Shown here: positions 823 through 47,870 of the stretch, in pieces
How positions within the stretch are numbered: position 1 is the first letter of the stretch
Layout of the letters: each line of letters begins with the position of its first letter
From: Spirogloea muscicola
Taxonomy: Eukaryota > Streptophyta > Zygnematophyceae > Spirogloeales > Spirogloeaceae
Direction: 5' to 3'
DNA length: 57,095 nt
Assembly (NCBI GenBank): GCA_009602725.1
Contig: WELB01000108.1
Coordinates: 383,910 to 441,004 of the forward strand
Notes under the pieces: generated by a model
Database searches by the model: none
Seen by the model: the letters and a program-made list of their open reading frames with translations, nothing else
Told to the model about the DNA's origin: nothing
Made by a program: the position numbers and the translations under genes

Positions 823-2340
823 TCAGCAACTGCAGCTGCTGCTGGGTGGGACCGCACCGGCCGTTGGCCGGAGCAAGTTGACTGCGGGAGCGCTCTCTGC
901 GACAAGGCTGGGCATCTCGAGGATCTGCACGTGCTCCACAATGAAATGGAGCGGCATGGCCTGGGTTAGAAATCATAACGCACACTCACAACCACTGCTG
1001 GGTGAGCACTGACTCAGGCCCCCGCACGACATGATTACCCGTCTACGTGACTGGACAATGGTCCAGCTCACCTTCTGAACGAGCTCCTCAAAGCACTGCG
1101 CCACATTGTCCCGTGTCTTGGCACTGCACTCGAGGAAAAGGCAGCCGTGCTGCCGCGCAAATGCCACACCCTCCTGCCGCGTCACCATACGCTCTGACTC
1201 CTGCAATTGTTCCCCACTGTGTATGTTTAAGCAACCCCTGCTGCCAGCGCGGCAAGACATGTGGCGTGGACCCCTTTCATCGCTGGTTAACACCGGAAGC
1301 TGAAACACAGTTGAAGTAAGCGAGTGTGCAGCTGGCCGGGCTTACCCGGTCAACCTTGTTGCCAACAAGCATCTTGATGCAGTCGGCATTGGTCGAGTAC
1401 AAGTCGATCTCCTTGAGCCACACCTCTGAGAGGTCGATAAATGTTTCCCGCCTGGTGACGTCATACACTGCACGCACAACCACACTCTCTGGCCAGTTGA
1501 GACGCTAGCACGCTGATGGCCGACCGAACAAGACTCCCCCAGCATGGCCCAACACCATGGCGAGTAGCGGGGCCAGCAGTCGGCCAAGCAAGACAAGTGA
1601 CGTGCTACTCACCGAGTATGATGCCCTGTGCTCCACGATAGTAGGAACCCGTGAGGGTCCGGAAGCGCTCCTGGCCAGCTGGGCACACCACACGAGTCTC
1701 AACGCCCTTGTCAGGCTCACAACTCCAAGCAGCAGCCTACATAGACTAAGGCAAAGTCGAGGCGCATGAGAAAGTTTTGTGCCATACTTGCTAGCATGTC
1801 TGCCATGTCAAGGACACCGCTGCAGTAGGTTAAGCTGGAACAGTCTGGGCGTGCTTAGCAGCAGACTGAGCTTACCTGTGTCCCAGACCGTGAGCTTGAG
1901 CCGCTTGCCACCAATGGTCATCATCTTGAGCTTAAAGTCAACACCTGCTGGGATAATGCTCAGCTCTGGTCTTAGCCTGGGGCGAGGCAGAGGCCTTGCC
2001 GCAGCAGCAGCAGGGCGCAGGGTGGAGAGGGGCGGGACGGACCGATTGTGGGCGCAAGGTCGTCAAAGACGTCTGCCGTGAAGCGCAGCAGCAGGCTGCT
2101 CTTGCCCACGCCTGTGCCGCCGCCGCCGCCACCGCACACCTCTCCTACTGCAGTCAGGCAGCTTGTCCTGGTCGCCATGCCGCAAGCTGGGGGTAGAGTG
2201 GAAGGGCAAGCGGAAGGGGGGGGCCAGAGGCGCCTACCCGAGTCGCCGATGAGGAGGAGCTTGAAGAGGTGGTCGAACTCGGGCGGCTTGGGGCTCGCCA
2301 CCGCCGCCGCTGCCGCTGGCGGGGCCGGCTTGGCCGCCAT
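823..2340 (-). CDS. Rab GTPase of the RabC/Rab18 class
   Basis: Membrane-traffic small GTPase, 219 aa in seven exons: 2238-2340, 2043-2111, 1876-1944, 1613-1678, 1346-1467, 1072-1200 and 823-924. All introns are GT-AG and all phases fit. Visible motifs are the P-loop GDSGVGKS (residues 32-39), switch I ending APTIGVDF, WDTAGQE (78-84), NKVD (139-142) and ECSAKT (167-172). The C-terminus is CSC, a double-geranylgeranylation signal of CXC type. The strings [17 protein letters not shown] and [12 protein letters not shown] closely resemble plant RABC proteins, which are Rab18 relatives linked to ER, lipid droplets and peroxisomes. That role is from the family, not from this sequence. The start is the ATG at 2340 before an Ala/Pro-rich leader; a start further upstream in frame is possible (GTG-type only seen). 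Length is normal for Rabs. Confidence 0.95.
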
Positions 2341-11844: not shown

Positions 11845-12140
11845 TGCTAAACGCTTGTAGAGGCCCCTCCGAACCTCTTTTTGGGCTGGCTTTTCGCAGC
11901 CCTTGCCCCCATTGGGAGTGCCACTTCTTCTTTCTCTTTCATGTCATCTTAGGTACCTTAGATTAGGTCTCCGTATTATGTAGCATTGTTTAGTCTGCAC
12001 TCGACTCTGCCTGAACAATGTATTGGCTTGAATTGGCCTCCCTTTCAATTCATGCGCCCCGCGCGCCTTCTCTCTTTCAAAGGGGCGGAGGGCTGTGAAA
12101 TGCCAGCCCAGAAACACTGGACAAGGTCCATATGGGCCGA
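11845..12140. repeat. Hairpin module and CTGAACAATG module
   Basis: The stretch contains GGGCTGGCTTTTCGCAGCCC (a short inverted repeat) followed by CCCCCATTGGGAGTGCC. The same string is found inverted at 31440-31500. A CTGAACAATG module lies at 12007-12075. The arrangement suggests dispersed non-autonomous repeats, not a gene. Confidence 0.65.
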
Positions 12141-12206
12141 ACGGCGCTAAAACCACACAGCTATGCACATGAGCTACAGCGTCTGGGAGGCGATGGATGT
12201 CCAGAA

Positions 12207-12404
12207 AGAGAAGCGCGGCCAGATTGACTGGTGGCTGGGAAAGGCCAGCCCAAAGGAATGGACAAGGTCTGAAGGAGCCGGAGTGCGAACGACTAGGACT
12301 AAGACATCAGCCAGGGAACGCTCAGTAACCTCTAGTCAGGAGATGAGAGTCTGAGTAGCTAGCTAGCTGGTGGAAAGACGTCGCCCTGACGGAAGCCGGA
12401 GGCC
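12207..12404 (-). mobile_element. Non-LTR retroelement family B, 3' fragment, minus strand
   Basis: Read on the minus strand it gives the end of the family B ORF (SGFRQGDVFPPAS) and then the shared 3' tail ending in the GGCTGG/CCAGCC hairpin and TCAATCTGGCCGCGCTT. It abuts a plus-strand family B copy at about 12405-12411, head to head. Confidence 0.75.
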
Positions 12405-17521: not shown

Positions 17522-19266
17522 CTACGACTTCTGAAGTGCCTCTGGCACCTTCTCACGCACAATGCCAAGCTGGGAGTCATAATCATCGTCCCGCTGCGCC
17601 CACTCCGCACGCTTTGCCTTGTCCAGCTCGAGCTCCTCAAAGCTTTTGCTTGTCTCGACTGCGTGCTCAGCGCCCAGGCTGGCATAGTTCTCCGCAGACT
17701 TGCCGATGAATGTCGACTCCTCGCTGGACAGATTCCTCAGGAACTTTGCCGGGTTGCCGGCCCAAATCTGTAGGCAACCCAGATGAATGGGGAGAATCAT
17801 TCTGCTGGCCAAGAAGCAAGTGACTTCTAGCTGTGCTGCACATAAAAGAGCCTGCCTTTGGCTGTCCTGCAGCTGAGCCAACATGCCCGCTCTCACCTTG
17901 TCTAACCTCGCTTGACCTCATGGATTTAGAATCATTAAGTACAGAATGCATAATGACAAATCAACTTGCGACCTCTGCAGTCCCTTTGTGTGGGCCACTG
18001 GCGCACCTGGCCGGAGGGTATCCTCGTATTCTGGGTGACCAGGGAGCCCGCTGCAACCATGGCGCCCTTCTCAACAACCACACCGTCCAGCAGCGTCGCG
18101 CCCATGCCTACAAAGCTCTCGTCTTCCACCGTGCATGCATGGAGCACCGCATTGTGGCCTGTCGAGGGAACAAACACTGGCCTGTCAAGCAAGTGGCAAC
18201 GCGTTGGCTCTAACAAGTCGGCCAGTAATAGCTAGCCCCTGCTGGCATCAAGGTACTCGTCCTCCACAAGCAAAACGTGGCCAAAGCCTGCAATCAGAGC
18301 GAGCAGCACGAGCTGACCAACGGTGACGTCGCTGCCAATGATGGTGGGCGCCACGTTGCCGCTGACGTTCGTCTTGGCAACGTGCACGATGGTGCCGTCC
18401 TGGATGTTGGTGCGCGTCCCCACGCGAATGTAGTTCACGTCGCCTGTGCCAAAGAGGACCATGGGCTCTTATCAAGACAGGCGCTAGCAAAGGCCACCGA
18501 CCAGATTGGTGCCAGCCAGTCGGGGTCACACTCAGCGCTGCGCTCGTGTGGGCAAGTCTCAGCTAGCGTGGCAAGCTGGAGAGCAGGCCTTATTGCACCA
18601 GCCTGGCCGTTCAAAGGTGGGGCAAAGCACCAAAGACAGCATCCACGAGGAGAAACGACCAAGTAAGCAGGCCGCACAGCAGCCAGAGACTGTGACAGTA
18701 TATCGCGCCGGACTGGCCGCTGCCAGGGCACTGCGGCGCTTCTGGTGCCTCTGCCAGCCAGTACTCGGCCAGCTGCCAACACAAACTCATACAGTAGAGC
18801 GGCATGTCCCATTGGCATCCACGTTGGGTATGCAGGCCTTGGCTGCTGCGGCGAGGATCACCACCGATCGGTGCGGCCAGAGGAGAGAAGGAGTTGGGGC
18901 ATGGAGACGCACCTCGCAGGACGGCGCCGTACCAGATGGAGGAGTGCTTGCCCACCGCCACGTCGCCGATGAGCGCCGCGCTGGGCGCCACAAAGGCGTC
19001 CTTGTCCACCGTCGGCGCCTTGTCCATCAGGTTCATCAGCGTGCGGTGCCGCGACACTGCGGCGGCGGCGGCGGCGGCGGCGCTGGAGGCGCTCAGCCGC
19101 GGCAGGGTCAGGGGAGGAGGAGGAGGCGTCGGAGAGGGCGGCGCTGCTCACGCTGCTCCTTGAAGGCAGTGCTGCCCTGCATGCGGCAGCCGAGGCGGTC
19201 CAGCGCCTGGCCCGTCTCGCGCACCCACATTCCCACAGTGTACAGCACGCGGCCGAGGGACGACAT
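17522..19266 (-). CDS. Mitochondrial gamma carbonic anhydrase (complex I subunit)
   Basis: Gamma-CA proteins form the trimeric carbonic anhydrase domain of plant and algal complex I. Five exons give 260 aa: 19152-19266, 18913-19056, 18318-18443, 18007-18158 and 17522-17767, phases consistent. The N-terminus [19 protein letters not shown] is the usual start. The left-handed beta-helix follows: [58 protein letters not shown], and so on. The three zinc-binding histidines are kept as His107 (IVHVAK), His130 (VGHNAV) and His135 (VLHACT), so this is a CA1/CA2-type subunit, not a degenerate CAL. The C-terminal helix carries AERAEWAQ-like and DDDYDS motifs, ending EALQKS. The start sits only 77 bases from the orphan DPH3 exon. 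Confidence 0.97.
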
Positions 19267-19281
19267 CGCCGCGAAACTGTG

Positions 19282-19314
<33 letters not shown>

Positions 19315-19342
19315 TGCGGCGGTGGCGGTGGCGGCGGCTGAC

Positions 19343-19444
19343 CGGGGTGATCTGGAAGAGGTCGCCGCAGGGGCAGGGGTAGGTGTACGCCCCCAGCTCC
19401 GCGCTCCACGCCATGTCCTCGATCTCCACCTCGTCGTACGACAT
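19343..19444 (-). pseudogene. DPH3: Orphan first exon of DPH3 (diphthamide biosynthesis, CSL zinc finger)
   Basis: The ATG at 19444 opens SYDEVEIEDMAWSAELGAY followed by TYPCPCGDLFQIT, the N-terminal half of DPH3/KTI11. DPH3 is a small CSL-type zinc protein that supplies electrons for diphthamide synthesis on EF2 and also serves Elongator. The first two zinc cysteines (CPCG) are present. A GT donor follows at 19342-19341. The second half with CPSC should come next on this strand, but the gamma-CA start lies at 19266, and no CPSC exon was found in the gamma-CA introns. The gene is therefore truncated here, either truly or because the CGG tract at 19280-19340 was collapsed in assembly. An in-frame ATG at 19486 would add an Ala-rich leader. 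Confidence 0.85.
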
Positions 19445-19751
19445 GGCGCCTGCGCGGCCCGCCGCCGCCGCCGCCGCCGCCGCCATGGCGGCAGNCCGGC
19501 TGCCGCTAGACTCCGGCTAAAGTCCCGACTGCCCGTACACCCCGAGGTCGGAAGAGGCAGGCAGAGTCCAGCTCCCGCCTCCGGGTCCCACCACCCGCCT
19601 TCTCGCGCGCCGCGCGCGGCGGCGGCGGCGGCGGCGGCGGAGGCGGAGGCGGGCTGCCCTTGAGGCCCGCAGCGGCCTCGGCGCGAGACCTGCAACCTTG
19701 TCGGAGCTCCTCCACTTTCGGCGGCGGAGCTCCTGGCGCGGGGTCTTCGCC

Positions 19752-20847
19752 ATGGCGTGGCTGGACGCCGAGAAGGTGCGACCGTCGGCGCTGCCCACCT
19801 GACCCCCACCCTTACAGAGCCCCCTTTCTCCCCCACCACTCCCCCAACCATGTTCGGCGCTTGCGATCCACAGACCGCGCCTCGCCGCCCCGCCGACCTG
19901 CAGCCGTTCTGGTGTTGCTCTTTGTTGTGCAAGCTCGGGCCCTGTGACGTCTGAGCAGGTTACGAGCCAGGCCCTACGTCCTATACAAGCCTTTAAATCA
20001 GCAATGATAAGACCTTCGCAAGGCGTTCAGATGGCGCGCAGCTGGCTTCAGTGATCATGCATAGAAGGCCAGACAAGCATTAGCTGCTGTAGAGGTTGCG
20101 AAGCCCTCAGCGACAAAATGCTAGCAGCTTGTCATACTATGGATGCTTGAAAATGCGTGCCACAACCGGCACTGAGCTATCTTCTCTATGGGCGAGCTCT
20201 TCTTCTTTCTTTGGCTTTGGACATTGTCCATTCTTTTTAGGGCTGGTTTTGCTAGCTCCTCTTCTCTATGGGCGAGCACTTTCTTCTTTTCTTCGATCTT
20301 GTCCTCATCCATAGATGCATGAGACTGACTTCATATGCAGCTGTGCGAGCACAGCTGCTTCGCAAGCAGTTGCATTCCAGACACAATGTGCAGAGGGCGG
20401 TTCGTCCTTGTGGTCGAATGCTCAGCCTTGACCTATTGAGCGACTGTGATCTGCCGGGGGGCGCAGGCGGAGAAGGAGCTGAAGCAGTGGTCCACGTGGT
20501 TCCTGAAAAAGGCCAAAATTGCAACATACTACGGCTTCATTCCGCTCGTCATAGTCATTGGCATGCAGGTGAGGGCTGCGATCGAAGGACGTACTGATTG
20601 CCTCGTCGTATATTGTGAGTGTAGGTCCTCTATCTCCCTCACAGGTGCAAAGAGGAGAAAGCCGATGGCTATTGCAGACTATTTGATTGACTTTCATTGC
20701 ACGCTGTCTGGCAGTACACCACCTACAAAGTCACTTGCACCATGCAGTCTGGGCATCTCTGTGACAGCTGAACCTGAGATGCTGTCTTTGTTGGCATCAC
20801 AGACTGACCCCAAACCACAGTGGACGCAACTTCTCGGACCAGTTTGA
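19752..20847 (+). CDS. TOM7: TOM7, small subunit of the mitochondrial outer-membrane translocase
   Basis: TOM7 is a tail-anchored modulator of TOM complex assembly. Exon 2 (20467-20568) encodes [19 protein letters not shown] and then [15 protein letters not shown], and exon 3 (20803-20847) encodes [14 protein letters not shown]. These match the plant TOM7 core (KKAK..THYGFIPLIIVIGM and DPKP..QLL.PV) closely. Exon 1 is proposed as 19752-19775 (MAWLDAEK, donor GTGCGA), which joins in phase and gives 56 aa. It is the least certain part; another short 5' exon may exist. The first intron is about 690 bp and contains dispersed repeat modules, long for this window. The gene is divergent from the DPH3 exon. 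Confidence 0.85.
20180..20295 (+). repeat. Hairpin modules inside TOM7 intron 1
   Basis: TCTATGGGCGAGC occurs twice (about 20184 and 20263) around GGACATTGTCCATTC and GGGCTGGTTTTGCTAGCTCC. The same order is found at 12770-12835, so this is a dispersed element inserted in the intron. Confidence 0.65.
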
Positions 20848-21819
20848 GACATGGTCACGACGGCATTAGTGTGCCAATGTTTTCGATGATGCTGCCATGT
20901 GCTGAAGACCATGCGACAGAAGCAGCATGGACTATTGCAGCATCCAGCTGGCTATTTGTTGGATACCTTTTGCTCTGTACAAGGCTTGGGTGTCAGTGGC
21001 ACTTGTTTCTAGGCTTGTTACCGTCACATTTGGCCGGAACTCGACCTGAGCAGGCCAGATCCTTGCAATGACAGGCGGGCTTCGAAATTTCGCATTTGAC
21101 CTGCAACACTTCACACATTACACAGTTATTGTGGGCCTTGTACATGCTAAGCTCTTGCGTTGGGGGCAGAGCTCTCATCAACTTTCCGATGTCATGAGCT
21201 GAGACCCATCTGCCCACAGCAACCCGTATGAGGTCCTCAAACGGAAGCGCGGCCAGATTGACTGGTGGCTGGGAAAGGCCAGCCCAAAAGAATGGACAAA
21301 AGAGGTTGCACATTGATCCTTCCCAAGTCGGTGACGGTAAACTGATGCCTCATCGTGGATAACCCACCCTTATGAGGCTTTGTCAATGCTTGAAGCTCGC
21401 CGGTCATGGTATACGTCTGTCTGGCTGCTATTGGGCATGCCGTCTGCGCATCTCAGGGAACAAGCTTGCCGGATCGAGCGAGCACGAGACCAGGCCGCGG
21501 GTGCCGAGCTGCGGAAGCAGACGTCTGGGCTGCACGGTGCGCAGGGCAAAAATGCCGCTCGGGGTTTGGGGGTTTGCTTTCGGGGCTTCTGCGGGGTCCC
21601 TCCCGATGCTTGCCACGTGCTGAAGCGCACCATCGTCAAGAGGATCGAACGGCGCTGCGCCAGCCCCGCTCGGGGTTACATGAAAACCCCTAAGTTGCGC
21701 TATCGACCCCTCGCCTATCATTCACGTACCGCGCAGCCTCCATCTGCAAGCTCCGCCGGCTCCGCCGCCGCCGCCGCCGCCACCGCCGCAGCCGCCGCCG
21801 TTGCAGGAGCGTCGGCGCC
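20848..21819. other. Intergenic region with a family B tail, no gene seen
   Basis: A minus-strand copy of the family B tail lies at 21238-21305 (AGCGCGGCCAGATTGACTGG, then the hairpin and AATGGACAA). The rest is the 5' flank of eS30. A GC-rich open frame at 21380-21823 has no recognised domain. Confidence 0.5.
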
Positions 21820-22658
<839 letters not shown>

Positions 22659-23153
22659 GCATGCAGCTACATAGAGGTTTGCTTAGCATGAGAGGCACCT
22701 GCCGCTGCATTGGAGCTTCACTTCAAGTGATGGAGAAGGGGTTGATGGACACTCTTTGTAGCATTGCAAGAAGAGGTGATTGCCTCTTGCTAGTTGATGC
22801 CGCCAGTAGCGACAGGAGGGGAGGAAGGGAAGCTTTTCATACAAAGGTTTGAGGATGATTGGGGACGCTGTTGTGGTGGACACTGTTGAGCTCGACTCGG
22901 CTTCATAGTGAAGCTGGGCAGAGGGTGGTGTGAGCTGATGTTCAGCATACTCGATTGAGCAGCTTTATTCACACTCCTTCAAGGAATCAATGCACTATAT
23001 ATCTTGGTTACCAGCTTCTCGGTAGGTGTAGCGCTACTGACAAGGTAATTTAGTAGCATGCAATTGCCAAGAGCAAGCTTCATCTGGCTTGAATTCCACC
23101 AAATACGACACCTACTTTCAAAGCACCATTATTTGACAGCGAATGGTTGGCCA
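22659..23153. other. Convergent 3' flanks, no gene seen
   Basis: The region between the eS30 stop (+) and the TTI1 stop (-) has no coding signal that I can support. Confidence 0.5.
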
Positions 23154-26100
23154 CTACCTCTCTGAGCTTTGTACAATGGGGTTGGCGAACTCACACTCTC
23201 CCAAATGTTCTACCTCTGACAATAGCGAAACTGCCAGAGCAACATCAGGCATTGCGCCAGAGGGCAACTGCCCTTTGCCCCACAGAATGTAAAGAGCATC
23301 CTTTGAACTGCTCCATGATGGCAAGAGCAGCTCTTTGTCAGGAAGCTCGAAGCTGCACTGCTCCTCACCGCTCTGCAACACCTGATCAGCCATGGCAGCC
23401 ACATTCGTCGAGCAAAGTTGCGGCCCTGGTATCTCGGCTGCGGACAGCGGCCAGCAGGTGAGGTCGGCCAGCAAGAGCCACACTGTGTCGGAATCGATGC
23501 TGGCTATTGCCAGGAGGGCCTGCTTTGCCACCGTGTGCACAGCCCCCCTTAAGAGTGGGATGATAGCACAAGCAACGGCCTTGGCAATGGGGGCCAACGC
23601 TGTGGACGACTTGCTCTCACTGGCTGTTGTGGCTATGCACCGCAACACAGCCTCCTTGACTTTCAGGACAGTGGCCAGCGCGACCTGAGGGCTTGGTGCG
23701 CTTCGTTTCTTGGGCATCAGGGTGGCCTTGGACTCGGGCTCGTCCAGCCGTGCTCCGAATGAGGACGGGGGCTGCTCCCCGGGGAAAGGCTCCACAATGG
23801 GCAGCAAGGTGGCAGCCGCCGATGCCGCTGCAGGCGAGACCGGCCCGTGGCAAAGCAGCCGAAGCATGTGGGGCCACGCATCGTCCCGGAAGCGGCGGGC
23901 CACAAAGTCGCCACCGCCCGAGAGTGCCAGAGTGGACATGACTTCCAGCGCCCGCGCCAACACCTGGTGACCTTGCCACTCTCATCATCAGCTTGGTACT
24001 GAAAGCGCCCACAAGGCTTACTATGAACTTACAAGCACAGCGCTAGTACTTTTGCGGGCAATAGGAGGGCTCACTGTAGGACTTGAAGAGCGCAGGCAGA
24101 GCACAAGGTGGGGCCACAGGAGGTGTATCCGTGGGAGGATGCGGTGCATCTCCTCCTCCTTGATGGCTGCCGGCCTTCCCTCCTCCTCTTCCCAATACTC
24201 CCGGCTGCTGCTCGTCCACTCACCTCCTGCTTGACCACCACTGCCCTCGCAGTAGGCGCCACACTGAATGAGTTCGACCACCGCCGCCTTCTCAAGCTTC
24301 TCGCTGTCACGGCACGCCTGCAGGCTGCCGAGTGCCCTCACTGCATTCTGCACGGACGACAGCCATGGGCAACCAGAAGGCTCAGCGGCAACATTGATGC
24401 CCTTGTTGTGGGTCTCGGACTCACAGGTGCATTGTGTTTGCATCAGTCAGCCCCACCAATACTCATCGCTGTTAGCTTGAAATACATAGCTGCACCAGAC
24501 TGACTGAGGGCTGCATACCTCGGCTGTGTCCAGCGCGACAAGGAGCACCGATAAGGGCTTGGAGCCGAGCAAAGGCCCGCAAGCTTCCAAACAGGAAGTT
24601 GCGACAGATGCCAGGGAGCGGTGGAGCCTCAGCCTCTCCTCTCGCTTTGCCTGTGCCTCGGACAAGTCCACAAATGCTTGATCTCCTCCCTCCTCCCTTT
24701 CTGCAAGCTCGCTGACTTCCATGGAGCTTTGCTGCCTTTCCTCACTTCTCTTTGAGGACCTCCTCCTCGGGCCCTGTCTAGTGCAATATTCGTCTTCCAG
24801 AGTTGCACTGGTGCTTGCAGTGGAATGTGCATGAACTCGACTGTCATTCACAGCAGAAGCTTGACCAGCCAGCACCCCTCCTCCATCGGCCTCGACTTTC
24901 AGCCTCATCATGCTTGATGCTGCTTCAGCTGACTGTCTTGCTGCAGCTGCAGCTTCAATATGTGCTGCTGCAGCTATCTCCCTCATAATCTGCAGATGAT
25001 AGTATGAGTAGCACATCATAAAGAGTGCTGTAACATCTGATCAATGAATTGATAAAATAGACATCCAGCTCATGAGGTTTTCAAGTGCATTGCAAGAGTG
25101 GGGTAGATAGTCCTACTTGCACAAATGCCAAAATCTGCTGCGGATGAGCACGTCTCGATGTAACCTCCAAGCTTTGAGCGACAGCTCTTAGCTGGCTAAT
25201 GCATGTACAATTCAAGACTTTAGTATAGGTTCGTGAATGCTTGCAGCAGATCATAATTAGAAGTCATTGCAGATACATCTTTGGCACGAATCTTTACTTG
25301 ACCATCATATACCACCGAACTTGTCAGACTTCAGCATGCTGAGGTGCAAGCAAAGCACAAGCTCTTGCTTGATCTGAAGTTGACTGAGGGCAGGGAGGAA
25401 ACCTCACAGGCTCTGAGAGAAGCGGCAGGAGGTTGACAGACGACTTGGTACGACTCAAGACCGCCACAAAGAGCCGGGGCGTGCGCGGGTACACAGCCAG
25501 ATGTCGCAGCCCTCGACACAGCGAGTCGACAATGTAGTCGGCATTCGCTGCAACCAGTGCACGTGGCTGGATGGCAGCAAATCCATGAGCTTAAGTGAAA
25601 CAAAAAAGGTGAACTGACTTAGTTCAGGTGACTACTGTTATGATGATAGGTTCATATTCTGCATAATACACTTCCTTGCGCTTGCGGTGGCCTCTTAAGG
25701 CAAGGAAAGTACCGAGGGGTAGCCGCAATTTATGCAGATTGAGTGCAGAGCAATGCCGGCTGCCTCGCTCACAGGGCCGTACGTGTCGCCCAGCTTGTCC
25801 AGAACAGGGTACAGTGTGCTCGCCAAAAGGGTCCCAGGTGACACAAACCGCCTGCCGAGAGCTCGAGCAAATACCGCCACGCCACGCAGCAAAATCTGCA
25901 TGCAAGCCCACCCTCTTATGAGGCTGCCAGCCAAGAGCTTAGCAGAAGCTTCACATGCAATGGGTGCGTATAACCAGTCAGCAAGACTTGCTGCATCTCT
26001 GTACCTGGTGAAGCAGGATGTTGGCGTCCAAGGCATGGCGGGCGGAAGCGGGGTCAAGGCTATCGTCTGAGTACGGCAAGTCCCAGAGGTCTGGGTTGAC

Positions 26101-29100
26101 AAACTCATGCAGCACCTCCTCCACAAAAGGAAGCACGTCTGCAATCTCGCCTGCGCCGAGCTTGACTAGATCGTCACTCCCCTCAGACTCCTCCCTCCAT
26201 ACCCCAGAGGCTCCATAGATGATCTCCTCGATTACAAGAGCCGCACTTGCAGCTGCCCGCTGAGTGCTGCCAACCTCTCTGACTTTGCCTTTGAGGTGAT
26301 CTGAAGGTGCAACATCTAAGACTGTCAACAACTTGCGAGGTTGGCCACTAAGAGAATTGGCGCAAGTCCTCAGAGTGCGCAGAAAGGGCTCCAGGATTGC
26401 TGAGAGTGCACTTCCAGTCAGCGAAGCTGTAAGCAGGGGGGACATCAACACACAAGAGAGGGCTCAGCTAGTGCATACTGAAGAAGCTCCTTCAGCTTGA
26501 GCAACTTCCAACAAGCCCGCCGACATTGGGACCAGCTGATGCAGATGTACAATCTGGATACAGCCATTTCGAGTCAGAGAACCTCATACCTTGGCCACAT
26601 ATACTTCCTGCCACTCGGCACACATGAGCAAGTGCCCAAAATAGCTCCTCATCTTCTAAATGGCGCAGCCTGGCATGTAACTGGGAGCTGTCCAGGTCTC
26701 TGCCTTGGAGAGCAGGGTTGCACTCAACTTCTCTGTCTTGCAAAATGAAGCGCGAGGGCAGGAGAGTTGGTGGGCCAGATAGTGCCACTGCCATGGTAGA
26801 AGTCGACGAGGAATCAATGGCGCGAGCGTGAACAAGGACTGAGGGTGCCGTGACATCTGCAATAAGGCTCGGGCGGGTGGAGAACTCGAACACCTGTGCC
26901 ATGGCACCCGAGAACAGCTCCCCTGCTGGCTGCACAAGTTTGAAGAAGAGTCACGTGTGCAAGGTGAGATCTACATAGGGTGACAAATAGGAAGAGGCCA
27001 ATTCATGGCTGACAACACGTTAGAAAGAACATTTATTGAGTACAGTTTTTACACAAAGTCATCCACAATTCTCAAGCTGGTAGTGCACGTACGTACTGAG
27101 GAGTTGAAGAGCAAAGATGGAAGATGGGCAGGTCCTGTTAGTTGCATGGCAGCAGCAAGGCATCACGCATGTAGAATGGCTGTGGTTGGATGTGCCTTTG
27201 CCGTGACCTCTGGCAAATCCCTAACAAGTCTGAGCAATTCATCAAGAAATCACAGAGTGAATGTCACCAAAAAAGGCAGAGGTGGTTGTTGCTTCCAAAT
27301 GATAGTCTGCAGAGAAGATGAGTATTCTGAGCAAGATGGTAAATTGTAGGCCACCATGCTCAGGTGCAAATGCGTGTTAGTGTGACTGACCTGCAAATTG
27401 TGCCTTTGAGGCTCTTGAGCTGGATGACCATGCCGTCCGAGGCTGTCCTGCCAGGACCCACCGTTTCAAGTATGACTGCGGATGACAACTGCTGCTTTAC
27501 TGCCATCACCACCGAGTGATGACCATCAAGGCTGAGACCCAGAAGGCAATCCTGTGGACGAGAAGACAAGTCAGAGCAGCAAGAGCACCTAAGTGTACAG
27601 AGTCAGCGGGTTACTTAGCATTATTGACAGATTCACAGGTAAGAAAGGCCTTCTTTGACACTGCTGTGAACATGCTTGCCACGAATTAATGTAGTAGATT
27701 CTTCAGCTACATGCTTCTGCATGTTGGTGACACTTGGTCCAAGGTACGGGGCGGGCTCAGGAGCGTCATTGACCAGAAATATGGTTGAGGACGAATGAAG
27801 GACACTGGAGCAGCCCAGGAGCAGCGAGCAACACGCCTCTGCCACGGCTGTGCGAACTTCAGGCATCCTGTGGGCAGCAAGCTGATGGAAGCATCCACGA
27901 ACAGGTATACAGAGGCCTATGTCAGCTGGAGCAGCGTAGGGGTTTGCAAGACAATTTTACAAGTGCGACTCTTACAGTGGAGGCCTGCTTGTCTACTTAT
28001 GCGAGCATCTGTACTTTTAGCAACATAGAAGATCAGGTGAGGCATATGAGACAGCCTCAGCAAGACCCTCATGTTCTTCACCACGCTGCACTCAAAGTAT
28101 TCTGCCAAAAGTGACTGTGCACACCAATCTTCGGGGCAGAGGGGGAGAACATCACATGAGGTAAATTCTCTCACCTTTGTGAAGGTCTTTGCAATGAAGG
28201 AGTGCACTTTCTTATCCACATCCTCCAGCCACTCTGCAGTCCTCTCGATGCGGAGCCGTGGAAGCACTCCTCCTCTTGAGGTGTCCATCACTCCATTGCC
28301 ACCCTCTTTCAAGGTGGTGCGGTCGCCCTGGCTTGGCTTGCTGCCGGCATCTTTGCCCTCCTTGACGGCATTCGACTTGGAAAAGCCCCTCAGCAAGTGA
28401 AGCACGTCCTGGGCGCTGCGCGGCTCCTCCTGGCCCGCATCATGCCGCCTGAGGTCGTCGTTGCAGACGATGACCAACAAGTCAGTGAAGGCCTTGAGGG
28501 CGGTGCAGATGCTGCTTGAGCTGGCGGCTGGTGCTGCAGGAGCGGCCGCCACCTGAGAGAGCAGAGCCTTCGCCAGGCCGCTGGCAACCCCCGGCAGGAA
28601 GAATGCCAGGGCGTCTGCTGTTCTCACCTGGTAGGAGGAACATGTCAGATGGGCATCAATCTCCACAGCAATGAGCCCAGGCATACTGTATAGTGCTGGA
28701 GGCTCCCAAGAGCCTGTATAATAGGCCCTGAGAGACTACGGCACTGGACTATAGCAGATCCACATGTCCATTTGCATTAGGAACTGAGACACTTGATTTG
28801 TCATGCCAGTGAGACTGCTGCAACAATGACATGTAAAAAGTCCCGAAGTCTACACATGCCAGTACTTCCACTTCCACTCTCGACTGGAAGTGCAACACGC
28901 AACTTTCACAATAGCTATATCAAGCGCGTACAACATTGCAAGTGACAAAGAACAGCTACTCATACAAGGTCAACAATCCCAACTTCTCGTCACCGCAGCC
29001 AATACATTAGCCTGTACCTGGAGAATGACCTGATGCAAAGTGGCAAGAGCCTCGGACCTCAGCGTGCGGCTGCCCCGGCTGCCAACTGCCACTTCCCCAC

Positions 29101-30742
29101 TGGCAACCTGCTCAGCTACACATGAATAAGAGGAGTGTGGGAGTGCAGCCATTCTTGACATGACTGCTGCAGCAACGGCAAATGCTCAGAAATAAGCTCA
29201 CTTACGATATTGACTCTACCTTCAAGCAGCCAACCTTACCTTCTTGGGCACCTCCAATTACTTGACTAAAAAACTACAAGATAAGAACTGCTGCAAAACT
29301 CTCACCCAGGTCCTATAGTGCCGTGTAATACAACCAAGGCCCCATTAGTGCTTACTTGCAGCAGGAGCGCATTGGAGCTCTACCGACCTCATCAAGCAGG
29401 AGCCCGCTGCTTGCGTAGAGGAGTGGAGGAGCTCTACCTGAAGGAGCAGAGAGAAGAGGTGGCCGACAGCTGGCGCCATCGCTACACTCCGTAGCGCCTC
29501 GACTGGGCAGGTCGACAGCTCTGCTGCCGCCTCCCGGCCGCTCTGTGCACGTGCTCTGCCACTTTCTGGCGCCGGGCAGTGGCATGCCAGTCGCAAGAGC
29601 AGCAGACGCAAGCATCTCACTGCTCGGAGCCGGATCTCCTCGCTGGCAGCCTCCCTGGGGAGCGACGCGAGCGAGGCGAGGGCGCGCAGGAGCGTTGCGA
29701 GCTGGTGGCCGGATTGAGCGCTGCAGTGGCCGAGGAGGATTTCCAGCGCATGGAGGGCCTCTTCGACGACCGAGTCCGCCACCCCAGAGATCTCTGGCAC
29801 GGCGCCTTTGGCAGTGCGCCGGGACGCGCCCGCTTGCGCCACAAGGAGGTGGAGAGGAAACAGGACATAGCTGCAAGCGCAGAGGTAGTCAATGGATTGT
29901 GAATCTCCTGTGGCGGCGAAAAACGATCAGGGTTTCCATGCTCGACTACAAGGTGCGGCGGCCAGGTAAGGTGACTTGAGTCCATATCGTGTGTCAGAGG
30001 TTAATGCGTCAAGCTCCAGGACCAGGCTTGCATCACAACCTGCACCTTGGCCGCGGCTCCGGCTGCCAGTAAAGCAGCTAAATTGTCGAGCTCGACCCCA
30101 AACCCTAAATCCTAACAACTGAAACCCTAAGCAATTGGCCTTGGGTAAAAGCGAGGGAGGAGTCACGGCGACTCTCAGTGCTTACTCCATGCAGGCCCGC
30201 AGGCCCGGCCGCGGGAGCTCCTGCAGGGCCGCCGCCAGCCGCCGGAGCGCGGCAAGCTGCGGCGCGGCGCCGCCACGGGCCTCCACGACCGCCACGCACA
30301 GCGGCCGCAGGCGCCGGAACGCGTTCTGCCTGGCCCCGTTGTTCACGTCCTCGCCGCCGACGCCGCCGCCGCCGTCATCGTCGTCGCCGTCGTCGCGTTG
30401 GTCCCGCCTGGCCACGCGGCCGGCGGCGCCCTCGGCGGAATCTCTGGCCATGGCCAGCTCCCGCACGCGCCGGAGAAGACCCGCCGCCTCCTCCGCCGCC
30501 GCTCCCGCCTCCACCTCGGAGGCCGGCGGCCCGGCGCGCCGCGCCGCAGGCTCGTCCTCGGGCTCCTCTCGCTGGCGCTCCATGGCTGCCGGCGAAGCCG
30601 CGGCGCTGAGGATCTCCTCCTCCGCCGCCTCCTCCGCCGCCTCATGCTGCTGCCCACAGAGCCAGGCGCGGTGCTGCCGCTCCCACGACGCGCCAGCCAG
30701 CGGCCCGCCCGCCTCGCCCTCGCCCTCGCCCTCGCTCTCCAT
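23154..30742 (-). CDS. TTI1: TTI1 (Tel2-interacting protein 1), HEAT-repeat protein, with an in-frame TGA
   Basis: TTI1 joins TEL2 and TTI2 in the TTT co-chaperone that matures PIKK kinases such as TOR and ATM. Fifteen exons: 30186-30742, 29356-29870, 29018-29115, 28175-28627, 27774-27881, 27391-27551, 27097-27229, 26590-26929, 26005-26426, 25713-25895, 25403-25566, 25117-25186, 24519-24989, 24075-24347 and 23154-23963. Their sum is 1586 codons with every phase matching. Family strings are CMDYVLFPLHLLV, LAAHRMPEVRTAVAEAC, EFVNPDLWDLPYSDDS, VAANADYIVDSLCRGLRHL, LLPLLSEPVRAVAQSLEV and ALEVMSTL-GGDFVARRF near the end. The N-terminal exon is acidic and Ala-rich. Codon 653 (27165-27163) is TGA inside exon 7, although flanking phases and homology continue through it. 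Either the allele is nonsense or the base is a sequence error; TGA is a normal stop in neighbouring genes. Confidence 0.85.
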
Positions 30743-32792: not shown

Positions 32793-35447
32793 CTAAACAA
32801 CCTTCTGGGGCTTCACACTGCCCCTCTCGAATGTCACCCACTCCTTTCTGTCAGGGTCGAAAAGATTGCATTGATTCACGATTGTGGACATGAGGGGCAG
32901 CCCAAAGGTCGCCTTATTCAGGTACTTGTTCCAGTTCTTTTCAATGGCGTCGTAGGCCAGCCGCAGGTTGTAGGATGGAATCTTGGTTGACAAATGGTGA
33001 GGAATGTGCACGCTGATGTCGTGGCATAGGACCTCAATCCTGATTCAGAAAAATGTACCAGTCATCGGTTAGCTCACCAAGGACAACATGGACATGCAGT
33101 CGCAGTATGTGAGCAACTAAGGGTCAAAGGACGTCATCATGTAAAAAATAAAATCTGCTGGACAGACTTACCACTTGGGGTACTCGCAGTGAACTGTGCC
33201 ACCAAGCTGCGCCTTGACCAACTCCCACTCACGCGCATTCTTGAATGGAATGTGGGGAGCAGTGTGGTGTACGAGGGTGAAGGTGCTCATCCAGAAATGG
33301 AATCCCAGGAAGGGAATGCCCCACCACTTGACGAAGCCAACTGGGCCAGTTGTGATCAACAGTGGCAGCAAAGCAAAGGCAGCAAATGCGCCAACAGCTG
33401 CCCAGGAGACTAAGACCTTGGGCTTCTCTTGAGGGCGGAACTTGTTCAAGTCAAAGTGCCACATGCCCCAGTGGCCCACTGATGCAACCCACCATGTGGG
33501 TCCCATGGCAATGTGCATCAAAGTCTTCGCAAGCGCTCCACTCCTCCTGTACATTCTTGGAGTGAAGGGTTGCCAGGCAGTGTCGATAAGAAGCCTGCAC
33601 ATGGACGGTCCAGAGATACCTCTCACGTCAATCTACAGATCAGGCTTGCACTGATGGCACTGCCAATCAGTACTGCACAGCCATTTCCAATGCATGCAAC
33701 ATGAAAAATTGGCAAGCGGAGAGAGAGGTCTGATGTGATGTCAGTGCAGGTAATGACGTGGTGCTCACTTGTTTGTGTGTGAGTGATGGGTGTTGTGCTT
33801 GATTCTCCATGGCTCAAAGGGATAGACGAGGGGAGCGAAGACGAGGGTGCCCACCACATCATTCACCAGTTGAGATCTTGAGAATGAATTGTGGCCACAG
33901 TCATGGCCTATGACGAAGAGGCCAGTGACAGCAGCGCTCATATATGCGTAGACCAAGGGGTACAGGTACCATGGGGCGACCGCAAGGGCAGCATAACCAA
34001 GTGCAACTGCACCAAACGTCGTGACTACACTTCGGAAAGCCTTGAGGTCATTCACCTCATAAGCCTGCGGTCAACAGTTTAGGTTTGACATTGAGATGCC
34101 TGACATGTCTCCCCTTGCACACGGAGTGTGAGCTACATGAATCAGCAAACTAGAACTACCATTGCTGGCTGCAGAACGCTCCCTGCATGAGTACAATCAC
34201 CATTGCCTAAATCAAAGCAACAGCTGCCATAATGCGCCAGCATGTTGCTGCCTTACCTCTTTTGGAATTGTCTTTAAGACATCACTCATTGAGATGCCAT
34301 CAGGCACCTGCCAGCAAGCAACACTTTGGGTTCAATATTGACAAGCACATTCTCCAGGTTTGCGTACATTTGACAGAATCGTGCTCTTATTATTTATGGT
34401 GTCACCTCTTCTTGCCAGCTAATTTACACATTCAACAGAACAATCCTGACAAGCTACCCAGTAGCTTCCATCTATTGCTTGTGCGAAGCTGCAAATACCT
34501 CCTCTCCAATCTGTGTGAACCCGGGAATCTGTGTGGTGGTTACTGCAGGCACTGCCACAGCTGTTGTCACCAGTCGCTTAGCCCTCAGGCTCCGTACCTG
34601 GCATTACAATGAAAAAGCTTGGGCAAATTGATAGTGGATACATCTGAAAGATTAAAACCTGTTAGGTTTATTTTAGAATCGGCCTGGCCCACAATGCCTC
34701 CCCACTAGCTGAAACAGGAGAGTAGGCCGGGGGTTTGGTCTTTGCCACTGTGGAAGACGATATTGATTTGAGTAAAGGACTGAGCTAAGTAAATGGACTG
34801 AGCTAAGTAAATGGACTGACGTATGCCAGCAGCAGCAATACAGCATCAACCCTCTGACTAAACTGGCCTATATTGATGTCAACAATAACGATAAGCGACG
34901 GAATAGCAGGCTAATGACTGCAATCTGATGGAGTCCAGGCTGCACTGTAACACTTCTTGTAACAGATCACGAAAGAATGCACATGAAAGAACAAAGAGGT
35001 CGCACTTACTGGCAAAGGAGTGAGGCCCCGCAGGGAAGCGCCCCGGAAAGAGGACCTTTGGGCAGAAACCTTAGAGACAGTCCTTGTGGCCTCTGTCTGA
35101 GTAGCTCCAACCTATTCAAAGAAGAACTTTAGCTGTTTGAGCTGTCAATGACGTCGCGCTTGGTGCAAAGCACCAGTCATGGGCTCAAGCTACTGAAATT
35201 TGCATGTCCTGAAGAGATTGTGACACCCGTTGATCAATTACAGACCCCCACCTCGACTCCAACAATTTCGCTCAATGCATGCATGTTCGACCCGAGCATG
35301 CATCTGTCACGCCCACAACATGCGTCCAACACACGATGTTCCACCACTGCCCGTCGGTCGCCTGGATTAGGATCACAGGCGAACCTGCGTTGAAGCAGGA
35401 GCCCGCAGCAGCGACCCCGTGCGCGCGGCAGCGCAGGCTGCCGCCAT
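32793..35447 (-). CDS. FAD6: FAD6, plastid omega-6 fatty acid desaturase
   Basis: FAD6 inserts the delta-12 (omega-6) double bond into plastid glycerolipid acyl chains using ferredoxin. Seven exons give 421 aa: 35385-35447, 35010-35096, 34499-34597, 34257-34307, 33769-34064, 33172-33594 and 32793-33039. Phases agree throughout. The first 70 or so residues form a transit peptide ([19 protein letters not shown] start; VTTAVAVPA near the cut). The three di-iron histidine boxes are HDCGH (154-158), HNTHH (190-194) and HIPHH (351-355). Other family strings are [32 protein letters not shown] and [18 protein letters not shown]. Length and order fit the plastid enzyme, not the ER FAD2. All catalytic histidines are kept, so it should be active. 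Confidence 0.97.
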
Positions 35448-36924: not shown

Positions 36925-38681
36925 AGGACATCCGACTTGCAGCTGCTGACGAGGTAAAATTGAGCAGGCATCCTTAGTGTTCTCTATGCTTTTCCTCTCC
37001 TTTGGGACCTTATTCACTCTTTCGTGGGCCGGCTTTACGAGACCTCACTTCCTGCAAAGAGCTGCTTCTTTCTCTCTTAAGTTGGTATTTCAAATAGACC
37101 TCGGCCCCTTTATAGGAAGTGCTTCTCCTTGGGCTCGCCTTCTTCGGCGATTGCTTTCCTGTGGTACAAATTTTGCTTTCAACTGTCGTGCGTGTATCAC
37201 CCATCCGCTGTTGCCTTGGGCGGCGACGACGGCCAGCTCCGGCAATTGCCCACAGCCTCCATGGCCTTGGCCTGCGCCTTCGCCTGCCGTAGACAACGGC
37301 CTTTGCTTGTGCATCTCATCTGCAAAAATTAGTACACGTTGGCTCAGCTTGGCCTCCCTTCCATGTCATGCCCACCGGTGCCTTCTCTCTTTCTGCTGAC
37401 TCAGGTCGTTGCTTTGCTGGCTGCAAGGGAGAAGCCTCTTCCTCTTCCCCATCTGCTGTAGCAGGGGCCACCTGTCGGGAGGGTGATTGTGATCCTTCTC
37501 CCTGATGTCATTGCTACTGTTTCGAAGCTCCCTGCGATAAATTTGGAGCGAGCCGAGTCTAATGGGCTCCTACAAAATGCTTTGATGTGCTGATGGTCTT
37601 GTGATGGACAGGGGTGCTGGTCCAGCAGCTTTGTTCTGCGTAGTTCACGAGTCTCTCCACTACCACGCTGCTGTCAAGCCAAGCACACAAGTGCTGACTG
37701 CTGTGATGGACTCTCCGGTCACAAAGACGAGATCAGGTGGGACCATGTAACTGGGGACCTCAGTAGGAGATCCCGGTGTCTAAGATGCTGTGCGCCCTAC
37801 ATGAACAGTCAGGCTGGGACCAGGCAAATTTGTGGCTGCGTGCAATGCGGACGGCTCAAAGAGCCCCAGCATCTGCCCGTCCGGAGCCCTCAAGGCCGCT
37901 ATCTGGCACCAGGAGCGACGTGCGGTCAGCAGCGTTGCCCAGTGTAAACCGCATAATTTGATTTCCTGACATGCTTGCCTGTGCTGGACTGCCAACTCGA
38001 TGCCTTCTGCTTGGGCCCATGCAAAGCTTGTGGCTACTGTCTCGCTTCAGGATGGACGGATGACCTTTCGGTGGAAGAAGGCGGCCTCTATGGGCCGCAT
38101 TAGTGCAGCAGGCCTTGCACCTAGCAGCCCCACAATACTTGACATGGCTGCACATCTGGTAGCTGTGAGTTGGGCCTGCCGCATGTCGCTGTCCCTGTTT
38201 TCCTCCTGCTCAGTGTCCTGTCGGGTTGCTTGGAATATCTGAGGTGCGAAGCGAGGGGTCGACGCAGTACCTTGCCATGTGGCCGGTATTTGATGGGCCC
38301 GTCAAGATTGGCGCCCAGGGAGAGGAGTCTTGTCACGGTCGCGTCCAGGTCGTCAACGTCAAAGTGGAGGAACGGGGTGTACCCCGTCGTGACTGGCGCC
38401 TCCCTGCTCGCGACAAGGCAAGATGAAGCACAATTCTTCAAATGGTGCCGGCAAATTGCTGCGGCGGTGGCTTTTGCAATTGTGTGTTGTAGCTGATCAG
38501 AATCTGAACACAGGTGGCGGCAATGGGGCGCACCCATCCACCTGCTTGATAGTGAGCTTGACGTCGCCCGACTGCAGCTCCGCGAAGCGCTCGGTGCAGA
38601 CGTTGACGGCCAGCCCCAGCCCGTCGCGATAGAACTGCACGCCCCTCGGCACGTCCCGCTGCAGCATCATGACGCACCGTA
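36925..38681 (-). repeat. Left arm of a large inverted duplication
   Basis: Read on the minus strand this arm is colinear with 53146-55445 on the plus strand. It contains the VOC gene (37780-38681), a shared intergenic part (CCTACTGAGGTCCCCAGTTA), then GGAGCCCATTAGA-TCGGCTCGCTC, and a distal part to a family-B-like end (GACTTGCAGCTGCTGA). The arms differ by scattered substitutions and by an insertion of about 580 bp in the right arm. Homology stops exactly at the N at 38682. Confidence 0.88.
37780..38681 (-). CDS. VOC/glyoxalase-fold protein, copy 1 (5' end lost at an N)
   Basis: Three exons: up to 38681 through 38534, then 38271-38403 and 37780-37902. The protein reads RCVMMLQRDVPRGVQFYRDG, ELQSGDVKLTIKQVDG, then EAPVTTGYTPFLHFDVDDLD with LGANLDGPIKYRPHGK, and IAALRAPDGQMLGLFEPSA before a divergent tail. 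This is a single vicinal-oxygen-chelate (glyoxalase/bleomycin-resistance) domain like a small plant protein family. The substrate is unknown. It is almost identical to the plus-strand gene at 53134-54037. The initiator ATG seen there is missing: the sequence upstream of N 38682 is unrelated. It is either a misjoined contig or a truncated duplicate. Confidence 0.85.
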
Positions 38682-39661: not shown

Positions 39662-40513
39662 TCAAGAATGCGCAGCATTGCCCTTGACTTGCTTTATCCT
39701 GGCTCTTCTGATCCTTGACATCTCTACCAGCTCCTCTCTTAGATCTCGCTTTCTAGCGTCCCCTTCATAAGGCAGACCCGAGAGCACCTTATCCAGAGGA
39801 TTTTCGTCTGCTAAGTCAAGCTTGCCATGGTCAGTTGCAACTGAGCTCCCCTTCTCTGGACAGTGTTGTCCATCATCAGGACTTTGACTTGGCGCACATT
39901 TCCCTCTGTCTTGCTCACTGCCATGTTCCGCAGCATTCCCTTCTTGAGCACCAACTTCAGCTTCTTGTTTTCTGGCTGAGTCTAAGGCAGCCTCCACACC
40001 CATCTTCTTGGGCATCTTCCTCCTCTTGCGCATGGGCTCACCCTCGACCACGGCACTGTGGACTCTCTTGACGTCGTTGAGCTGTGATCTTCTCAGCCCC
40101 ACTTCTTTGGCTTGACCGATATCTTTGTTCTTTGCAGGATGAAGCACCTTCAAATTTGCTCGTGTTGGCACCTTCGACTCCTCCACCTGCTGCTTCCTAG
40201 TAGCGTTGTTGTGCATGTATTTACACTTTGTACCCCGGGTGCAGCTCCCTCTTTCCCAGTCGATGCATGGGACTTTCTTTGCATGCATCACGCCGCCCCT
40301 CCTCCCTCTCTTGGTCAACTTCTTCTTGCCCGTCGGCAGCACCACCTCCTCCCTACCATCTGCAGGGCTCTCAGACGCGACCAAATCTGCAGCAGCATCA
40401 GTACAGGGCTTTATCACGCTACGGTCAATTCTTTTTGTTGCAGAGCATCTTGTTCCCAGGCCTCGCATGCAGATTGACACGCCTTTGAAGTTGGCAGGCA
40501 GAGAAGAAGACAT
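39662..40513 (-). CDS. CCCH zinc-finger protein with basic linker
   Basis: A continuous frame of 283 aa from ATG 40513 to TAG-type end at 39662. One CCCH finger is clear near residue 83: C-IDWERGS-C-TRGTK-C-KYM-H, spacing C-X8-C-X5-C-X3-H, typical of RNA-binding fingers. It is preceded by a Lys/Arg-rich patch (GKKKLTKRGRRGG) and followed by a second basic patch (MRKRRKMPKKMG). The C-terminal third contains NPLDKVLSGLPYEGDARKRD and EMSRIRRARIKQVKG. I do not recognise the family beyond the finger; a role in RNA handling is an inference. There may be an upstream exon at 40750-41075 on the same strand, but I could not find a phase that joins it. Confidence 0.72.
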   Translation of the reverse strand: MSSSLPANFKGVSICMRGLGTRCSATKRIDRSVIKPCTDAAADLVASESPADGREEVVLPTGKKKLTKRGRRGGVMHAKKVPCIDWERGSCTRGTKCKYMHNNATRKQQVEESKVPTRANLKVLHPAKNKDIGQAKEVGLRRSQLNDVKRVHSAVVEGEPMRKRRKMPKKMGVEAALDSARKQEAEVGAQEGNAAEHGSEQDRGKCAPSQSPDDGQHCPEKGSSVATDHGKLDLADENPLDKVLSGLPYEGDARKRDLREELVEMSRIRRARIKQVKGNAAHS

Positions 40514-40749
40514 TAGTGTTTCAGATAGCGGCGGGGGGCGTCAGACGGCTGTCAAGTGACCTGCCAGCTGTGCAGTGAGAGACTGTGCTACTTCAGGACT
40601 TCCTTTCGAGCCCACCAGATCCAAAGACAGAAGCGTTGCCTGTTACATAGGACTGGAAAAAGATCATGCAAAGCCCCTGCAGAGGACATCAGTGCAGCCA
40701 GGAGAAGCTTGCCTTCTGCTACGTAAGAGCCTCCTTCTCTGCGCTTACC

Positions 40750-46239: not shown

Positions 46240-47010
46240 GTTTGTCTGAACACAGTGTTGGCTTGATTCGGCCTACCCCTTTCATGTCTTAGTCCTAGTC
46301 CTTCGCACTCCGGCTCCTTCAGACCTTGTCCATTACTTTGGGCTGGCCTTTCCCAGCCACCAGTCAATCTGGCCGCGCTTTCTCTGCATGTCATGCGCAC
46401 CGCGCGCCTTCTCCCTTCTCCTGGCTGGCATGGAATTCCGTGTATAGAAACAAATGTAGGCCAAATGACCAAGTACAAGCCCCTGGCTGGGCTTCTGCAG
46501 CCGCCGCTCCTTTGATATCAGCAGCCGCATACATTTCTCCTGTCATGTTCTTCTCCTCACCACTGACGCGACTCAGCTCCAGCCACGGAAGAAACAGCAG
46601 CAGCGTTTCACGAGAGAAAGTGAGCTCGCAAAAGGGGGCCAGCTCAGCAGCAGGTGTTGCACGTCTGTAACTGTGCTTGCCTCTGTACTCGGCGGTAAGC
46701 GCGGCCAGATGAACTGGTGGCTGGGAGAGGCCAGCCCAACGGAATGGACAAGGTTTGAAGGAGCCGGAGTAACTGAGACTCAAGCAAGAGGAAAGTGCTT
46801 GCCCTTTTGAGGATAGGGGCTGGAAAAGCCAGCCCAAAAAAGAATGGACAGAGTACGAGCAAGAGGACTCTCTGTTAACCTCTAGTCAGAAGATGCAAGT
46901 CCGAACTCGGCCCACTCAGGCCTTCCATCACTCTCCACCGCGCTCTTTTAACATTCCTTTGGGCTGGCCTTTCCCAGCCACCAGTCAATCTGGCCGCGCT
47001 TTTTCTTTTT
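46240..47010. repeat. Nested family B tails and hairpin modules in both orientations
   Basis: A plus-strand family B tail lies at 46283-46375, followed by a reverse family A tail (46433-46480), a minus-strand family B end (46690-46910, including CCTCTAGTCAGAAGATGCAAG), and a plus-strand hairpin tail (46950-47005). No gene is credible here. Confidence 0.7.
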
Positions 47011-47165
47011 TTGACATCAGCAGCCGCAGCTGCCTCTTCATCACTCAACACGCGTTCCGTTTCGCACTCCCTCCCTCCAGTTCTAGTTCTTCCACTCCAG
47101 CAGCCGCTTTTCCGGCGCCGCCGCCGTTGTCCCCGGCCCGCCTCGCCGCCGCCGCCGCCGCCGCC

Positions 47166-47870
47166 ATGTTCGGGGTCCTGACCAAGCTGGGCATCGCGGT
47201 GGCGGGCCTGGGGTGGCCCGCCTACGCGTCCTTCAAGGCCGTGGAGTCGTTCGACGCCGCCGACGACCGCCAGTGGCTCACCTACTGGGTCGTCTTCGCC
47301 TCCCTTAGCTTCTTCGAGGTGCCGCCGCCGCCGCCCCCAATGCCCCACTGCCGCCGCTTAGGCAGCGCCTCTAGCGACAGTCGCCGGCCGCTCGCAGGCT
47401 TCCCCCCCATCGTCTGCCCTCCTCTGCTAACTGCCAGACCCATCAGCTGGACTCCGGCTTTCGCGCTCCACTAACAAGAAGCAGCTGAAGCGGCCGCCCC
47501 GTTCGCTGCCTTCTCTCATTGAGCTGGTGCTGCTTATTGTCTTGGTGCGCAGCCGTTTGTGCACGTGCTCCTGGACTGGCTGCCACTGTACCAGGAGCTC
47601 AAGCTGCTGCTCATCGTCTGGCTCGTCCTGCCCCAGACGCGCGGCGCCGTGTACGTATACGACCACTTCGTGGCGCCCTTCTTCCGGCGCCACGGCGGCG
47701 ACATCGAGCACTGGCAGAAGGTCGGCCAGGCGAAGCTCGGCGGCATGGCCTCCCCCGAGAACCGCGCCACCTTCCAGCGTTTCGTTAACGAACATGGCAG
47801 CCGCGCCTTTGGCGAAGCCATGCGTGTGGGCTACCAGGACGGTTTCAGCCAAATTGGGAAGCAGCACTGA
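47166..47870 (+). CDS. HVA22/REEP (TB2/DP1) family ER-shaping protein
   Basis: Two exons, 47166-47318 and 47553-47870, give 156 aa. Proteins of this family insert hydrophobic hairpins into the ER membrane, promote curvature, and in plants include the ABA-induced HVA22. The first exon gives LGWPAYASFKAVESFDAADD and RQWLTYWVVFASLSFFE, the second PFVHVLLDWLPLYQELKLLL, IVWLVLPQTRGAVYVYDHFV and APFFRRH. The pattern P-x-Y-x-S-x-K-A-V-E, the WL-Y-W-V segment and LPQT-GA-Y-Y are the family signature. The start ATG at 47166 follows a CCG tract. Length is normal. The intron is short and CCG-rich at its start. Confidence 0.93.

Follow-up and report, generated by a model that had tools for sequence, protein, structure and literature searches.

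An in-frame TGA in exon 7 of the Spirogloea muscicola TTI1 gene is very probably a single-base nonsense lesion

The TTI1 gene of Spirogloea muscicola, as assembled, carries a TGA in frame in the middle of its coding sequence. What is this codon: an error in the sequence, a null allele, a stop that is recoded, or a stretch that splicing removes? We examined the 57,095-nucleotide stretch of DNA that holds the gene (the window) and built an exon model of TTI1 by hand. The gene lies on the minus strand at 23154-30742 and comprises 14 exons, encoding 1577 codons followed by TAG. Its 13 introns are all GT-AG and measure 109-418 nt, with phases that are consistent across the model. In-frame stops occur at codon 670 (TGA) and at the terminal codon 1578 (TAG), and nowhere else. 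Exon 7 (27097-27229, minus strand, 133 nt) holds the TGA at 27163-27165; it is entered in phase 2 and left in phase 0, and is flanked upstream by exon 6 (27391-27551, minus strand; phase 0 in, 2 out) and downstream by exon 8 (26590-26929, minus strand; phase 0 in, 1 out). After two bases that complete the exon 6 codon, the peptide of exon 7 reads LVRDLPEVTAKAHPTTAILHA, then the stop, then CLAAAMQLTGPAHLPSLLFNSS. The remaining two frames of the exon hold one stop each, and the whole exon is open in no frame. An earlier, sequence-only reading of this DNA had given the TGA, its coordinates, the splice phases and the peptide correctly, and had taken the TTI1 frame to pass through the TGA, as our model does; this TGA is the sole premature stop in 1577 codons. 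It had counted fifteen exons where the present model has 14; its further claim that the exons sum to whole codons holds for the present model, whose coding length is 4734 nt and divisible by 3.

The identity of the gene, also proposed by that reading, is borne out by profile and structure databases. With an X placed at the stop, the read-through protein exceeds the Pfam cut-off of 27 bits for TPR_TTI1_N (118.8 bits), TPR_TTI1_2nd (33.1), TTI1 (81.7) and TPR_TTI1_C (43.2), and in the PDB it matches human TTI1 (7ole_H) at E 6.8e-30, best over the C-terminal half. TTI1-like sequence had been claimed on both sides of the TGA, and domain matches are indeed found on either side. Furthermore, the sequence downstream of the stop, taken alone, matches three of the four TTI1 domains, indicating that the coding sequence is still that of TTI1 beyond the TGA. 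Judged by its sequence, this is an ordinary nuclear TTI1 (TELO2-interacting protein 1), an HSP90 co-chaperone of the TTT complex; what sets it apart from known TTI1 is the TGA at codon 670. When exons 4-8 were searched against the PDB by themselves, no TTI1 came up, just an unrelated chain at E 1. Among the matches listed for the gene, those away from its own locus were weak, with E values of 0.001 or above, and biased in composition. No TTI1 relative was found in the genome contigs scanned, a collection not meant for algae and uninformative on conservation. Viral contigs, likewise from a collection not meant for algae, gave one match that we rejected, a short reading frame (L001) sharing the word ICINCGYP with TTI1 and little else, and weak scattered matches only to the remainder of TTI1.

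If the organism read TGA as a sense codon, codon 670 would not be a stop at all. Consistent with such a code, TTI1, a fatty acid desaturase gene and a carbonic-anhydrase-like gene are all terminated by TAG. However, TGA occurs just once in the 1577 codons of TTI1, unlike a sense codon, and both a Rab-like tail and a CCCH-finger ORF terminate in TGA. The presumed C-terminal end of the Rab-like gene (823-849, minus strand) reads PPSSSCSC and then TGA (825-823). Its Ras Pfam match (E 4e-9) covers residues 1-42 of a 73-residue joined model, the tail lying outside the match, and the final CSC looks like a prenylation tail. The CCCH-finger ORF (39665-40540, minus strand) provides an ORF end, which is a putative gene end. 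By the Rab-like tail, TGA thus appears to act as a normal stop in the neighbourhood, in support of the earlier statement that nearby genes use it so. A variant nuclear code would leave TGA absent as a terminator and common as sense; neither pattern was found, and we regard sense decoding as practically negligible.

In the TAG-terminated desaturase gene (32793-34070, minus strand) three ORFs match FA_desaturase in order, one of them above the profile cut-off and two below. The carbonic-anhydrase-like gene (17522-19266, minus strand), also TAG-terminated, appears intact, has hexapeptide repeats in a 260-residue joined model, and is presumably of the gamma-type carbonic anhydrase-like kind.

Recoding of a genuine UGA could take the form of selenocysteine insertion. 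The codon is a UGA, in frame within a long protein, as such a reading would have it. Rfam includes SECIS families; at gathering thresholds it gave zero matches in the whole window, hence no SECIS, and at E up to 10 the region 20500-28000 returned four weak matches, none of them a SECIS. The lack of a SECIS match counts against selenocysteine, with the reservation that the sensitivity of these families is limited. To our knowledge TTI1 is not among the known selenoproteins, and decoding of codon 670 as selenocysteine seems extremely improbable. A search for a suppressor tRNA, run with a bacterial-code setting, found no tRNA gene in the window.

Alternatively, the TGA may be real and fixed, and TTI1 may survive by low-level readthrough, as proposed for a nonsense allele of yeast TTI2. 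That precedent comes from within the TTT complex: the yeast allele tti2 Q276TAA is reported to support viability where two C-terminal truncations do not, and its authors hypothesise low readthrough, although their blots showed no full-length protein (PMC4889661). As in TTI1 here, a mid-gene nonsense codon falls in an essential TTT subunit. In contrast, the yeast case is an experimental ochre allele of TTI2, whereas ours is an assembled TGA in TTI1 that is possibly not real. Likewise, human ALDH3B2 has a premature TGA in a longer coding sequence, and full-length protein is reported from human placenta, with the peptide across the TGA undetected (PMC6941052); the TTI1 studied here is known from sequence alone. 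These two precedents show that a stop of this kind can be survived, and they leave readthrough a slim chance. The context of the stop argues against it. Downstream of the codon the sequence reads TGA TGC CTT, so that UGA is followed by UGC and not by the leaky CUA, and the +4 base is not C, the base described as most prone to readthrough (PMC4973966). The context for programmed UGA readthrough, UGA-CUA(G), is thus not found at codon 670. Furthermore, the hexamer TGATGC is common to codon 670 and to the Rab-like CSC end, where termination is expected. No downstream RNA structure stands out either: folding of the spliced mRNA over 120 nt, counted from the first base of the TGA, gave z +1.6, which is nothing unusual.

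Elsewhere in the window, at 39662-39664, the end of the CCCH-finger ORF reads TGA-CTA-CCT and so carries the UGA-CUA context described as leaky (PMC4973966). The next in-frame stop there comes about a dozen codons on.

As modelled, exon 7 has only moderate support. An alignment of human TTI1 to exons 6-8 is possible; it keeps the LxGP word of exon 7 in register and needs gaps to the left and right of it. Against the human protein, the 50 residues after the TGA score 26, a value attained by 12 of 2000 shuffles, and an 80-residue stretch scores 25, attained by 19 of 2000 with a best shuffle of 41. The codon score of exon 7 (-3.4 bits) is the best of its three frames (the others reach -6.0 and -8.9), but 46 of 397 intron windows do at least as well; the part before the TGA scores +2.1 and the part after it -5.5. 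GC3 of the exon (0.40) is the lowest among the 14 exons. Among the 13 acceptors, that of exon 7 ranks last (leave-one-out score -1.5), and its donor is ordinary (5.2). In a Pfam comparison, which shows the best stretch per family and does not single out exon 7, removal of exons 6 and 7 raised TPR_TTI1_2nd from 37.0 to 40.6 and lowered TPR_TTI1_N from 40.3 to 32.9; two further splice variants gave 35.1 and 36.2 for TPR_TTI1_2nd. Taken with the codon, GC3 and acceptor results, these values leave a small chance that splicing around exons 6-7 differs from the model.

Splicing might then avoid the TGA altogether, through a shortened exon 7, a hidden mini-intron, or joint skipping of exons 6 and 7. 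We enumerated the possibilities with the exon 6 donor and the exon 8 acceptor fixed, allowing GT or GC donors and no more than a single internal intron (20 nt or longer), the last donor being restricted to GT when an internal intron was present. On paper 376 open splice variants are possible, but even the best of them leave no more than 63 of exon 7's 133 bases in frame. Candidate sites do exist: the GT at 27207 reaches 1.8 as a donor, on par with the weakest real donors of the gene, and an acceptor at 27134 scores 3.3. By contrast, the donors that adjoin the TGA are poor, with -2.6 at 27166 and -1.4 at 27168, where the 13 real donors range from 1.1 to 9.3 (leave-one-out). Scored with one matrix, the acceptor at 27306 reaches 12.4 and that of exon 7 reaches 4.9, but use of the former would lengthen the exon (27306 to 27097) to 210 nt and break the phase. 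Joint skipping would preserve the frame, exons 6 and 7 together measuring 294 nt, a multiple of three. Here the higher TPR_TTI1_2nd score speaks for skipping and the lower TPR_TTI1_N score against it. Alignment to human TTI1 also disfavours bypassing the codon: the read-through peptide of a shorter stretch scores 27, whereas the score drops to 7, 9 and 8 for three splice variants and to 8 for the form with exon 7 dropped, values that shorter length also lowers. We therefore hold a splicing solution to be improbable.

Two specific candidates were tried and rejected. A tempting 32-nt mini-intron (GTGATG...CTAACAG), which is among the 376 open variants, would be far below the shortest intron of the gene (109 nt) and would pair a poor donor (-2.6) with a fair acceptor (3.3). 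A duplicate or mutually exclusive exon 7 was sought in the window with both exon-7 peptides; each matches exon 7 itself, and the next E value is at least 0.43 among the matches listed.

Splice sites of the region include two further features. The acceptor at 27306 is the strongest between exon 6 and exon 7 and is unused in the model. At the end of exon 7, GT donors stand 4 nt apart at 27096, 27092 and 27088 (27088-27096), with scores of 7.2, 4.1 and 0.9, and could allow phase-shifting alternative splicing.

Since the nonsense codon stands alone in a long and otherwise intact gene, within a gapped assembly, a single-base lesion is the best reading of it. Draft-genome consensus errors and loss-of-function alleles likewise present one isolated lesion in a gapped assembly, the gene being otherwise intact. 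Gaps in the window comprise five single Ns and one run of 967 Ns, and part of these fall within repeats or a run of G. The position and the frame of the TGA are read directly from the assembly; its status as a lesion, as opposed to a recoded codon, is what we infer, and we consider it highly probable that the assembled exon 7 carries such a change, as a base-call or consensus error or as a null allele. An error in the draft assembly has about an even chance of being the cause, and a real null allele, heterozygous or strain-specific, is a serious though lesser possibility. TTI1 is expected to be essential, by extension from other organisms (PMC4889661, PMC5681926), and this expectation makes a fixed null less likely than error or heterozygosity. 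The causes that the sequence-only reading had listed side by side are therefore not equal: sequence error or an allele is well ahead, and nothing positive was found for selenocysteine or programmed readthrough.

Among the 14193 possible single-base changes in the TTI1 coding sequence, 463 give a stop, one of which alters the TGA itself, and stop lesions like that of TTI1 are therefore to be expected at the scale of a gene catalogue, at ordinary rates of error or loss of function. Should the mutation be real, the introns of the gene (23154-30742) point to a route for it. Their observed/expected ratio is 0.41 for CpG and 1.45 for TpG, and CpA is in excess too, which suggests CpG methylation and deamination; the proposed C-to-T change, if at a CpG, is thus a plausible origin. 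The proposed starting codon, CGA for Arg, is not established. Opposite the stop, human TTI1 has Ser in the 80-residue alignment, and a longer alignment places the stop in a gap.

Several other parts of the window show repeats or possible breaks. An exon at 19148-19516 (minus strand) appears to be the first of a CSL zinc finger gene, presumably DPH3-like, and matches positions 1-30 of the 55 in the profile. A six-frame pattern search of the window found no CPSC-type second half, and the exon is followed by (CCG)n repeats and then by the beginning of the carbonic-anhydrase-like gene. The gene may be broken, or the assembly may have been joined here at a repeat. The ORFs at 38124-38666 (minus strand) and 53162-53611 (plus strand) differ at one position over their first 40 residues (CCSGTCRGACSS...) and represent a duplicated segment in opposite orientation. 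The peptide word WAGLSQPPVNLAA recurs in four ORFs, at 11947-12306 and 20996-21349 on the minus strand and at 46267-46512 and 46879-47178 on the plus strand, and is a dispersed repeat.

If the TGA of TTI1 is an error or an allele, it is mainly an annotation issue: prediction programs would break TTI1 in two, cut it short or supply a spurious intron. A real and unsuppressed TGA would truncate the protein after 669 of its 1577 residues, and would remove the stretches matching the TTI1 domain, the C-terminal TPR and the second TPR domains. Were it fixed as well as real, TTI1 would offer a rare case of an essential gene with a stop in its middle. It is also conceivable, if very unlikely, that the TGA is fixed and that this essential HSP90 co-chaperone is expressed only via regulated readthrough or skipping of exons 6 and 7. 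In that event the amount of TTI1 would determine how much of PIKKs such as TOR, and possibly of SMG1, is available. SMG1 is part of nonsense-mediated decay and is supported by the TTI1 complex, so that with a fixed and real TGA a feedback on nonsense-mediated decay would be directly testable.
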